DNA from: an uncultured Eubacteriales bacterium
Lineage (GTDB): Bacteria > Bacillota > Clostridia > Peptostreptococcales > Anaerovoracaceae
Length of the DNA stretch: 64,000 nucleotides
Assembly (NCBI GenBank): GCA_902786855.1
Contig: CADAEH010000009.1
Coordinates: 1-64,000 of the forward strand
Reading direction: 5' to 3'
The notes below the pieces were generated by a model that did no database searches, was not told the origin of the DNA, and saw only the letters and a program-made list of their open reading frames with translations. A program made the position numbers and the translations under genes. This document shows positions 41,335 through 43,179 of this stretch, in pieces (the first letter of the stretch is position 1; every line of letters begins with the position of its first letter).

Positions 41335-41371
41335 AAAACCTATTGACTTGGTAGGTTTTAAGGTCTACTAT
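41335..41371 (+). promoter_or_regulatory. cysK promoter with overlapping operator
   Basis: TTGACT (41343-41348), 17-nt spacer, TACTAT (41366-41371). A perfect inverted repeat AAAACCTA (41335-41342), 9 nt, TAGGTTTT (41352-41359) overlaps the -35, as expected for a repressor. The Rrf2-type protein encoded at 42784-43179 is a natural candidate. Confidence 0.65.
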
Positions 41372-41441
41372 AGTGGTGTCAATCAATTAGAAAGTGACTT
41401 GAGGACCGATGAAGAGAAATTACAGGATGAACGTTCTGAAT

Positions 41442-41513
41442 ATGGACAATATGATGTGTTGTTGTCTGTGCTGCAGCTCCCGGGCACGATCTACGGCCGG
41501 GGTCTTGTCATGA
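41442..41513 (+). CDS. Cysteine-rich leader peptide of cysK, 23 aa
   Basis: A short frame downstream of the promoter reads MDNMMCCCLCC followed by about a dozen residues and TGA (41511-41513). Five of six consecutive codons (41457-41474) are Cys: three TGT, one CTG, two TGC. An ATG at 41427 would extend it by five residues, and starts at 41451 and 41454 are also possible. The Shine-Dalgarno is only AGGA. The frame overlaps the 5' arm of a long stem that competes with an intrinsic terminator, so it looks like a translational sensor of Cys-tRNA supply ahead of the cysteine synthase gene. Confidence 0.7.
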   Translation: MDNMMCCCLCCSSRARSTAGVLS

Positions 41514-41602
41514 GATGGCAGACACCGCAGAGTATTTCGGACTTGAATCCCTGATTTCAGTCAATCTGCCCGGGAGCACATAAAGCTTACGGGCTGTTTT
41601 TA
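41476..41602 (+). promoter_or_regulatory. cysK attenuator: competing antiterminator and terminator
   Basis: GCTCCCGGGCA (41476-41486, starting 2 nt after the last Cys codon) is perfectly complementary to TGCCCGGGAGC (41567-41577). The second arm overlaps the terminator: GCCCG (41568-41572) pairs with CGGGC (41590-41594), with an inner AGC/GCT, followed by TGTTTTT. The two stems cannot coexist. A weaker CCCGG/CCGGG hairpin (41479-41483 with 41497-41501) is a third option. Confidence 0.7.
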
Positions 41603-41683
41603 TGGACGAAAGATCAGGGACCATCTGAATGCTGACAAATGTCAGAAAAAACACAGCACAGAACAGAAAGAGAGGAACTGAAA

Positions 41684-42616
41684 ATGGCTAATATTTATAA
41701 AGGAACACTGGGACTTATCGGAAACACACCACTGGTCGAGGTAACTAACATAGAGAAAGATCTCGGACTTGAAGCAACCGTACTGGTAAAGCTTGAATAC
41801 TTCAATCCCGCAGGAAGCGTTAAAGACAGGATCGCAAAAGCTATGATCGAAGATGCTGAAGAAAAGGGACTTCTGAAAGAGGGGTCTGTGATCATAGAGC
41901 CTACATCCGGCAATACGGGTATCGGACTTGCAGCGATCGCAGCTGCCAAAGGATACAGAGCGATACTGACAATGCCTGAAACAATGAGTGTTGAAAGAAG
42001 GAACATACTCAAGGCATACGGGGCCGAGATAGTTCTGACAGAGGGCTCAAAGGGAATGAAGGGCGCTATAGAAAAAGCAGAGGAACTTGCAAAGGTAATA
42101 CCTGGCGGATTCATTCCGGGACAGTTCGTTAACCCGGCGAATCCAGCGATACATAAAGCAACGACCGGTCCGGAGATCTGGAATGATACAGACGGGAACG
42201 TAGATATATTCATAGCAGGAGTAGGTACAGGCGGTACACTGACAGGAACAGGGGAATACCTTAAATCGCAGAAGCCTGACGTAAAGATCGTCGCACTCGA
42301 GCCGGCAGATTCTCCTGTCCTTTCAGAAGGTAAGTCCGGTCCGCACAAGATCCAGGGCATCGGAGCGGGATTTGTCCCTGATGTGCTCAATACTGCAGTT
42401 TATGATGAGGTCTACAAAGCAAGCGGAGATGATGCATTTGCTGCTGCAAAGTACCTGGCTAAGAAGGAAGGTATCTCCGTGGGCATTTCATCCGGAGCAG
42501 CGCTGCATGCAGCTATAGAGTATGCAAAAAAGCCTGAAAATAAGGGCAAGGTCATAGTAGCTCTTCTGCCGGACAGCGGTGACAGATACTACTCAACAGC
42601 ACTTTTTGTCGAATAG
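41684..42616 (+). CDS. cysK: Cysteine synthase A
   Basis: This 310-aa PLP enzyme makes L-cysteine from O-acetylserine and sulfide. The PLP lysine is K47 in [16 protein letters not shown] is at 74-79, and a [12 protein letters not shown] loop binds the PLP phosphate. AGAGAGGA precedes the ATG at 41684. It lies about 310 nt from its promoter behind a Cys-rich leader peptide and attenuator. It is monocistronic, ending at a bidirectional terminator. Confidence 0.95.
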
Positions 42617-42783: not shown

Positions 42784-43179
42784 TTATAGGAGATCACTCA
42801 GTTTTTTGCTGTAAAAGAAATCTTTTGTGATTTTATAATATTCCTTCCACATAGGAAGTGTATGACATTCATGCGCCAGCGGGCATTCAAATGCTTTCTC
42901 TTCAAGACAAGCAACGGGTGCAAATTCACCTTCCATTATCTCAAGTATCTCACCTACAGTATAGTCTTCAGGTTTCCGGCATAGACTGTAGCCACCGCCT
43001 TTACCGCTAATACCACAGATCATGTCACTTTTAACAAGTCCCTTGACGATGATCTCGAGATATTTCTTGGAGATCTTCTGTCTCTCGGAGATTTCTTTGA
43101 GTGGGATATTTCCTTCATCAATATGCTGAGCAAGATCTATCATAATACGCAGAGCATATCTTCCTTTTGTAGAAATCAA
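42784..43179 (-). CDS. Rrf2-family regulator, IscR/CymR-like
   Basis: This 131-aa protein has a winged helix-turn-helix in the first 65 residues (ISTKGRYALRIMIDLAQHID, then KISKKYLEIIVKGLV). The C-terminal part carries C91, C99 and C105 with H106 (ACLEEKAFECPLAHECH), resembling the [2Fe-2S] ligands of IscR, though the first spacing is two residues longer. It starts at a TTG after GGAGGATAAAAG on the minus strand. Its position beside cysK suggests control of cysteine or Fe-S metabolism, either by a cluster or in CymR style. Confidence 0.88.
   Translation of the reverse strand: MISTKGRYALRIMIDLAQHIDEGNIPLKEISERQKISKKYLEIIVKGLVKSDMICGISGKGGGYSLCRKPEDYTVGEILEIMEGEFAPVACLEEKAFECPLAHECHTLPMWKEYYKITKDFFYSKKLSDLL

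Follow-up and report, generated by a model that had tools for sequence, protein, structure and literature searches.

The cysK gene of an uncultured Eubacteriales bacterium is preceded by a leader which, to judge from sequence comparison and modelling, is very probably a ribosome-mediated transcription attenuator that senses the charging of Cys-tRNA, and probably that of Met-tRNA too. Its conservation, the placement of its codons, its mutually exclusive folds and their covariation have all been computed. The mechanism is of a known kind; what appears to be new is an RNA family spread across several families of the class, and an open reading frame (ORF) that runs through the antiterminator. In what follows, "the window" is the whole 64-kb stretch of DNA that was analysed.

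The cysK Leader and Its Parts

The gene downstream of the leader (41684..42616, on the + strand like all features below unless stated otherwise) is cysK, encoding cysteine synthase A, as an earlier note made from the letters alone had proposed; it scores 449.8 bits with TIGR01139, against a cut-off of 350.95. The coordinates given in that note also hold on re-checking. The leader ORF (41409..41513), recognized from its sequence and its conservation in relatives, encodes the 34-residue peptide MKRNYRMNVLNMDNMMCCCLCCSSRARSTAGVLS and ends with the TGA stop codon at 41511-41513, while a Shine-Dalgarno-like GAGGA lies upstream in the sequence at 41401..41405. Shine-Dalgarno matches covering at least 7 nt of AAGGAGGT are present in 24 of 58 leaders, those of the cysK leaders being 4-5 nt long or missing. 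Within the ORF, the run TGTTGTTGTCTGTGCTGC (41457-41474) holds five Cys codons in six, a pattern that occurs once in the window and in none of 100 shuffles. It comprises three sensor codons, TGT TGT TGT (41457..41465), which comparison of relatives shows to be conserved, and two extra codons, TGC TGC (41469..41474), found among 20 cysK leaders in this species only. Arm A (GCTCCCGGGCA, 41476..41486), the 5' arm of the antiterminator, is still inside the ORF and is identified by sequence and covariation. Arm C (TGCCCGGGAGC, 41567..41577), identified by sequence and pair counts, is common to the antiterminator (A:C) and the terminator (C:D). As first described, the antiterminator is an 11-bp perfect complement whose 3' arm is shared with the 5' arm of the terminator; its 10-bp core with a gap of 60-90 has a single occurrence in the window and none in shuffles. 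Arm D (41585-41594) and the U-rich run behind it make up the intrinsic terminator (41585..41601), supported by sequence, consensus fold and pair counts. The C:D stem spans 10 positions with one mismatch and is followed by TGTTTTT; a simple terminator scan of the window called no terminator at C:D. Three further parts complete the leader. Arm B (41497..41506) is an alternative partner of A, pairing with 41474-41483 according to consensus fold, pair counts and ensemble folding. Region X (41513..41525) has two alternative partners, the stretch of Cys codons at 41456-41467 (1:X) and arm B, according to consensus fold and ensemble folding. Helix R (41487..41539), an antiterminator accessory known from pair counts, joins CGA..TAC (41487-41494) to GTA..TCG (41532-41539); across the 20 cysK leaders 86.7% of its cells pair, and two mismatches interrupt the window copy. 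The leader stop lies 25 nt past the end of arm A, beyond the 5' arm of the antiterminator, as had been pointed out.

A sigma-A-type promoter (41343..41371) is read by pattern scan as TTGACT (41343-41348) and TACTAT (41366-41371) with a spacer of 17. The sequence noted earlier is indeed present and the cysK relatives have a similar one, but the scan alone does not rise above chance (two promoter-like matches against a shuffled mean of 1.4). Since such matches are expected by chance, the promoter call rests on conservation. The sequence also has an inverted repeat, AAAACCTA-N9-TAGGTTTT (41335..41359), which is a candidate Rrf2/CymR-type operator; the palindrome, ACCTATTGACnnnGTAGGT, covers the -35 box. 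A gene for an Rrf2-family regulator (42784..43179, - strand) scores 109.9 bits with TIGR00738 (cut-off 73.3), but its protein reaches only 89 of 195 bits on the CymR model. By a loose pattern, a CCTATTGACnnnGTAGG-like box lies upstream of 88 of the 104 elements described below, with no match in the other 16 and 0 in each of 20 shuffles. The palindrome is a probable site for an Rrf2-family regulator, whose binding we infer from sequence, and this promoter operator probably adds a second layer of control. By eye, the box is also seen at six cysK copies that have no attenuator (L021-L025 and L029), and at L021-L025 an Rrf2-type gene seems to begin upstream of cysK in divergent orientation.

Conservation Within the Genus

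Searching 100 relatives at the DNA level gives a match in 28 of them, the source genome included. Thirty loci were placed on CysK, and 20 of these (L001-L020, including the window) share the leader, typically MCCCLMQSSRARCMAGVLS. Among the remainder, L030 repeats L017, L027 and L028 have no CysK match, and the attenuator leader is absent upstream of cysK in seven (L021-L026 and L029). Arm C (GCCCGGGAGC) is invariant in all 20 cysK leaders and arm A nearly so, with one mismatch within A:C in L015 and L019, and the first three Cys codons read Cys-Cys-Cys in 19 of the 20. A covariance model (R1) finds the element in 20 of the 48 genomes of the genus and does not find it in 28. An exact pattern scan of genome contigs returns 26 stretches, 19 of them labelled Mogibacterium or (uncultured) Clostridiales, with isolate names referring to goat, sheep, horse or similar, and seven labelled as other phyla. 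Conservation of the Cys run and of the stems had been set beforehand as the test of the idea, and it is found both in these 20 leaders and in the 104 elements of the wider set. Together with the zero matches in shuffles, this conservation rejects a chance origin.

Some cysK copies that lack the attenuator have something else upstream. In L021, L029, L022 and L026, short ORFs with an in-frame CGA-TGT (Arg-Cys) can be read by eye, among them MRTRCRCMTGNYQE, MQTLILMTERC and MIILDRRCAKSDVI. Such an Arg-Cys ORF may be a regulatory element on its own.

Spread Beyond the Genus and Downstream Genes

Across the family, R1 matches 38 of 350 genomes. Of 18 family loci outside the genus, 13 have a leader and five (L089, L090, L091, L095, and L096) were rejected as plain terminators without one; the model match L052 was rejected for the same reason. 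The gene for a homocysteine synthase relative, metY (TIGR01326, 185.8 bits for the first 150 residues of one), lies downstream of 12 of the 13 family leaders and of L051 inside the genus, and a metF relative (TIGR00676, 139 bits) follows one leader. A second model, R2, was built from 13 elements, namely L051 and 12 of the 13 family leaders, L086 being left out. It recovers the cysK type and matches 58 places in 55 of the 350 family genomes and 11 of 92 genera, including a second copy in the source genome itself, upstream of metY. An order sample has 26 matching genomes among 394, every one within the family; a class sample has 13 among 391, the source genome and 12 others from five other families; and a phylum sample has two among 279, the source genome and one more. 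The genus of one class-sample genome is rich in the element, with 47 of 59 genomes matching and up to five model matches each; 27 of these many loci (L174-L200) were inspected. The total of 104 elements is the sum of 58 from the family, 18 from the class sample and 28 further loci.

The genes identified downstream are almost all sulfur-amino-acid genes (cysK, metY, metF, metB/mccB-like, metQ-like, and metNIQ-like). After the 58 family elements come MetY in 33 cases, CysK in 21, MetF in one and unclassified genes in three; at L141, counted among the 21, an SDR-type oxidoreductase ORF comes first and cysK stands about 1 kb on (+984). The 18 class-sample loci precede MetQ-like (6), MetB/MccB-like (5), and MetY-like (3) genes, MetN followed by a permease and MetQ (1), amino-acid ABC transporters identified by reading (2), and a glutamate-cysteine ligase-like ORF at +505 (1); these names hold at the family level only, since the five proteins scanned score below the curated cut-offs. 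The 28 further loci precede MetQ (25), MetY (2), and one unclassified gene. At four loci (L158, L160, L162, and L163) the element precedes a metB/mccB-like gene, behind which lie cysK-like and ABC ATPase genes; these elements retain TGTTGTCGAATG and CGATGTTGA, and their arm A and C sequences differ.

Mutually Exclusive Folds and Covariation

In an alignment of 60 elements, 10 of the 15 antiterminator pairs show two-sided change, amounting to 33 cells where shuffling gives 14.0 on average (sd 3.2); none of 500 shuffles reaches 33, and slid versions of the alignment give at most 9. A 58-element alignment has seven such antiterminator pairs and 36 cells, against 11.4 when shuffled. Both alignments were fitted to the covariance model, hence the arms were also counted directly. 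In that count, arm A CTCCCGGAC is accompanied by its exact complement GTCCGGGAG in six of eight cases, CTCCCAGGC by its own in the one case, and CTCCCGGGT by its own in one of 10, the other nine retaining GCCC, with which a G-U pair is still possible. The 20 cysK leaders alone yield no informative covariation, with two-sided change in 0 of 16 and 1 of 30 pairs. The shared arm C, the covariation and ensemble folding all point to an antiterminator and an intrinsic terminator that exclude each other. The logic of leader-peptide attenuation, which had been read from a single sequence, thus gains support from the 20 cysK leaders, the 104 elements and the covariation of the wider set.

Putative Sensor Codons

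Codon numbers here take the Ser codon in arm A, TCC, as their origin. One hundred of the 104 elements were registered on arm A alone, disregarding the sensor, the four with differing arms (L158, L160, L162, and L163) being left out. Codon -5 is Cys in 90, Met in seven and another residue in three, so that Cys or Met stands there in 97 of 100; codon -6 is Cys in 89, and codon -7 is Met in 69 or Cys in 25. In the first 58 elements, codon -5 is Cys in 51, Met in five, Gly in one and Arg in one. Because the models used for finding include the Cys codons, elements with a different sensor may have escaped them, and departures may be under-counted. The sensor varies with the gene it precedes: cysK leaders read Cys-Cys-Cys, metY leaders mostly Cys-Cys plus Met codons, the sole metF leader Cys-Met-Gly-Met-Arg-Met, and the metN leader (L161) Met-Tyr-Met-Cys-Met-Phe-Arg-Met. 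The regulatory codons suit the amino acid of the downstream gene; the metQ leaders, which precede a methionine-transporter gene and mostly read Met-Met-Cys-Cys, fit less well, and the match of sensor to gene is imperfect.

Substitutions among 14 cysK leaders (91 pairs) separate three zones. Codons -7 to -4 have a pN of 0.0 and a pS of 0.155, the Cys codons varying synonymously only. Codons 0 to 9 have a pN of 0.052 and a pS of 0.065, and codons -18 to -8 have a pN of 0.245 and a pS of 0.36 (pN/pS 0.68). By this sequence comparison, the Cys codons are kept at the codon level and the stretch from arm A to arm B at the RNA level, with an N-terminus that is weakly constrained.

Ribosome Position and Folding

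To follow the folds during translation, the ribosome was represented by a block that covers -15 to +11 relative to the A-site codon. Over the 100 elements, the mean probability of A:C is 0.53 without a ribosome. It is 0.67 for an A site at either -6 or -5, drops to 0.34 at -4 and to 0.08 at -3, is 0.00 from -2 to +6, and stands at 0.71 at +12. Scans of the 20 cysK leaders and of 37 others have the same shape, and a footprint change of 3 nt moves the boundary by one codon (35 elements). In the model, the Cys codons are thus the last positions at which a stalled ribosome spares A, and further translation removes it. In the window RNA, A:C is 1.0 wherever A is unblocked, whether there is no ribosome or one on the Cys codons, and A:B is about 0.58-0.60 with or without a stalled ribosome; the one thing that switches off A:C in silico is a ribosome on A. 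When a ribosome is placed at the stop codon of the 20 cysK leaders, A:C is not excluded. The earlier note had remarked that a stop codon beyond the 5' arm leaves the terminating position of the ribosome unclear. The scan likely gives part of the answer: a ribosome moving over A, and not one parked at the stop, would exclude the antiterminator. A stop beyond A is what would be expected if termination were caused by ribosomes crossing A.

Like the behaviour of the window RNA, several further results count against attenuation. A:C exceeds C:D in 76 of 100 elements with the A site at -5, but it also does so in 60 of 100 without any ribosome, so that equilibrium favours read-through and termination in rich medium needs either steady ribosome traffic or kinetics beyond equilibrium folding. 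A Met codon at -3 (94 of 100) falls within the zone where a stall blocks A, and Cys at +3 or +4 (43 of 100) is placed where a stall would cover it.

The ends of the leaders suggest an extension of the model. Arg-Cys occurs downstream of A in 67 of 104 leaders, at most three residues from the end in 46, and 39 of the 104 end in CGA-TGT-stop (metQ/metY type, for example L167-L173). CGA encodes the Arg in 65 of 68 of these pairs and, in the first set, all 28 Arg residues that stand at -4. Nine genes of the window use CGA for one of their 130 Arg codons. In three sets made up of the longest ORF at each locus it accounts for 13 of 470, 13 of 424, and 5 of 239; CGA is the rarest Arg codon in every set counted. 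Cys is mostly TGC in the longest ORFs of the loci and mostly TGT in the sensor. A tentative reading, which we hold to be rather doubtful, would make the whole a single Clostridia-wide RNA family with a two-zone code: a stall upstream of A (on Cys-Cys or Cys-Cys-Cys) or well downstream (on Arg-Cys-stop) would spare the antiterminator, and a ribosome on A would lead to termination; the rare CGA before TGT would sensitize the second site, and Cys would be read twice per pass. This reading is kept since, in the model, a ribosome stalled at Arg-Cys-stop once more spares A.

A Model for cysK Control and its Alternatives

From these data we infer translation of the leader, stalling, termination and the role of cysteine, and a sequence of events can be proposed. 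RNA polymerase would make the leader, in which the Cys codons of the ORF (Cys and Met codons in relatives) end about 10 nt ahead of arm A. When Cys-tRNA is scarce, the ribosome would stall with a Cys codon in its A site and its front edge just short of arm A. Arm A would then be free to pair with C as it emerges, leaving D without a partner, and transcription would continue into cysK. When Cys-tRNA is plentiful, ribosomes would cross arm A and block its pairing, so that C:D forms and the transcript is terminated. A nested fold of Cys codons:X and A:B may also hold A in the cysK type after the ribosome has gone.

That nested fold could have a larger part. In a classical protector scheme, which we see as plausible though somewhat short of probable, the off state would be mainly the nested hairpin of Cys codons:X and A:B, comparable to the trp 1:2 hairpin, formed after the ribosome departs; a stalled ribosome would cover the Cys strand, B:X would form and A would be freed, the occupancy of A being secondary. 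RNAalifold gives this fold as the consensus for the 20 cysK leaders; 1:X pairs in 97.9% of cells and A:B in 95.0%. In transcripts that end before C, a ribosome with the second Cys codon in its A site lowers the mean A:B from 0.54 to 0.15, abolishes 1:X (0.53 to 0.00) and raises B:X from 0.23 to 0.64 (20 cysK leaders). However, once C is out and D is not yet, A:C wins at equilibrium in 20 of 20 without a ribosome (mean 0.98), and in the window A:B does not drop. The data for this scheme cover the cysK type, and there is little covariation in it, with one of 30 pairs, terminator included, showing two-sided change.

The remaining alternatives dispense with codon sensing. It is unlikely that control lies wholly with the promoter operator and the Rrf2 regulator and that the leader and its stems form a constitutive or growth-rate terminator. 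The frequency of the box before the elements, the Rrf2 gene adjoining cysK in the window and the six box-bearing cysK copies without attenuator would suit such an arrangement, but it leaves unexplained the fixed distance of the Cys codons to A and their codon-level constraint, and the 16 elements without a box speak against it. Arrest by the nascent peptide, in which the conserved CCRM.NSRAC.MAG would stall the ribosome on a ligand such as free cysteine, is very improbable: the peptide is indeed conserved well past the Cys codons, but this conservation looks RNA-driven, as an Ala-to-Thr change at +2 goes with a compensating change in C in six of eight GGAC arms, synonymous changes are not in excess at codons 0 to 9, and position +3 can be C, R, G, W, Y, D or others. 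Hardly credible, finally, is a translation-independent ligand-binding riboswitch or degenerate T-box. The multi-helix antiterminator fold is conserved, and a Cys T-box precedes cysK in Clostridium perfringens according to the accessible part of one report (PMC2940859), but Rfam gives no match beyond chance level, the conserved parts are ORF codons and arms, and 24 of 58 leaders have ribosome sites of at least 7 nt.

Relation to Known Systems

Amino-acid genes of Firmicutes are usually credited to T-boxes, riboswitches, and repressors. In the trp/his-type attenuators of enterobacteria, a short ORF rich in the regulated amino acid is coupled to an antiterminator and a terminator that exclude each other; in the trp layout the stop precedes the antiterminator's 5' arm, which a ribosome waiting at the stop covers. 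The leader described here has the same kind of ORF and the same exclusive folds, but its arm A lies inside the ORF, the stop comes well beyond it, and a ribosome at the stop would not cover the antiterminator arm. Stop placement defines the trp layout, not the attenuation mechanism. The polycysteine leader ORFs of mycobacteria, the subject of a 2020 title by Canestrari, are reportedly leaderless.

Cys-rich leaders in other phyla, to which the earlier note alluded, are on record for Actinobacteria and Rhodobacterales, as far as the available parts of the sources go. The mycobacterial polycysteine ORFs likewise place Cys runs before cysteine operons, but they belong to leaderless transcripts of Actinobacteria, and the portion of the report at hand describes Cys codons near the stop and no conserved terminator hairpin (PMC1262725). 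The uORFC-8-2 motif before cysS in Rhodobacterales, likened here by its description in an excerpt, also combines tandem Cys codons with a terminator, but it is alphaproteobacterial and has its Cys codons inside the stem (PMC8632094). The C. perfringens cysK-cysE transcript ends prematurely under cysteine sufficiency, as is proposed here, but through a Cys-specific T-box in the passages available (PMC2940859), whereas the window leader has no T-box match. Nearer relatives in kind are the His leader peptides before hisS/hisZ in bacilli, where attenuation is predicted to replace T-boxes; these are Firmicutes leader-peptide systems too, but for histidine, and the sections available of that 2010 survey state that no earlier one was known to it (PMC2965389). 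The Listeria ilv-leu attenuator, Rli60, came afterwards; in the available text it is ribosome-mediated and, like the device proposed here, a Firmicutes attenuator with a second layer, the DNA-binding CodY, but it serves branched-chain amino acids in one operon (PMC5864092).

No Rfam family matches the window or 13 class loci above its gathering cut-off, four chance-level matches having E-values of 2.3 to 8.4. The T-box model has no match in the window or the 13 class loci, and the SAM aptamer model none at the window leader. The leader and its peptides have no NCBIfam match and one Pfam match at E 0.42. Searches of open-licence papers in PubMed Central turned up no account of such a family, and an earlier description elsewhere is possible. 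The earlier remark that no clostridial cysK family of this sort was known stands as far as Rfam and these searches go, but its scope was too narrow, as the device is confined neither to cysK nor to the species. Elsewhere in the source genome, two T-box-like elements below the cut-off (G000:C2:50230-50448, L202, and G000:C10:23266-23528, L203) precede thrS-like and trpB-like ORFs, and the one SAM riboswitch match (G000:C8:17342-17451, L204) precedes a metK-like ORF, all named by eye.

A conserved family standing before both cysteine and methionine genes would alter the annotation of sulfur metabolism in gut and rumen Clostridia. With an ORF that passes through the antiterminator, it yields a clear prediction on ribosome position. 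Its natural series of Cys-only, Cys plus Met, and Met-rich sensors on one scaffold makes up a test set for codon sensing.
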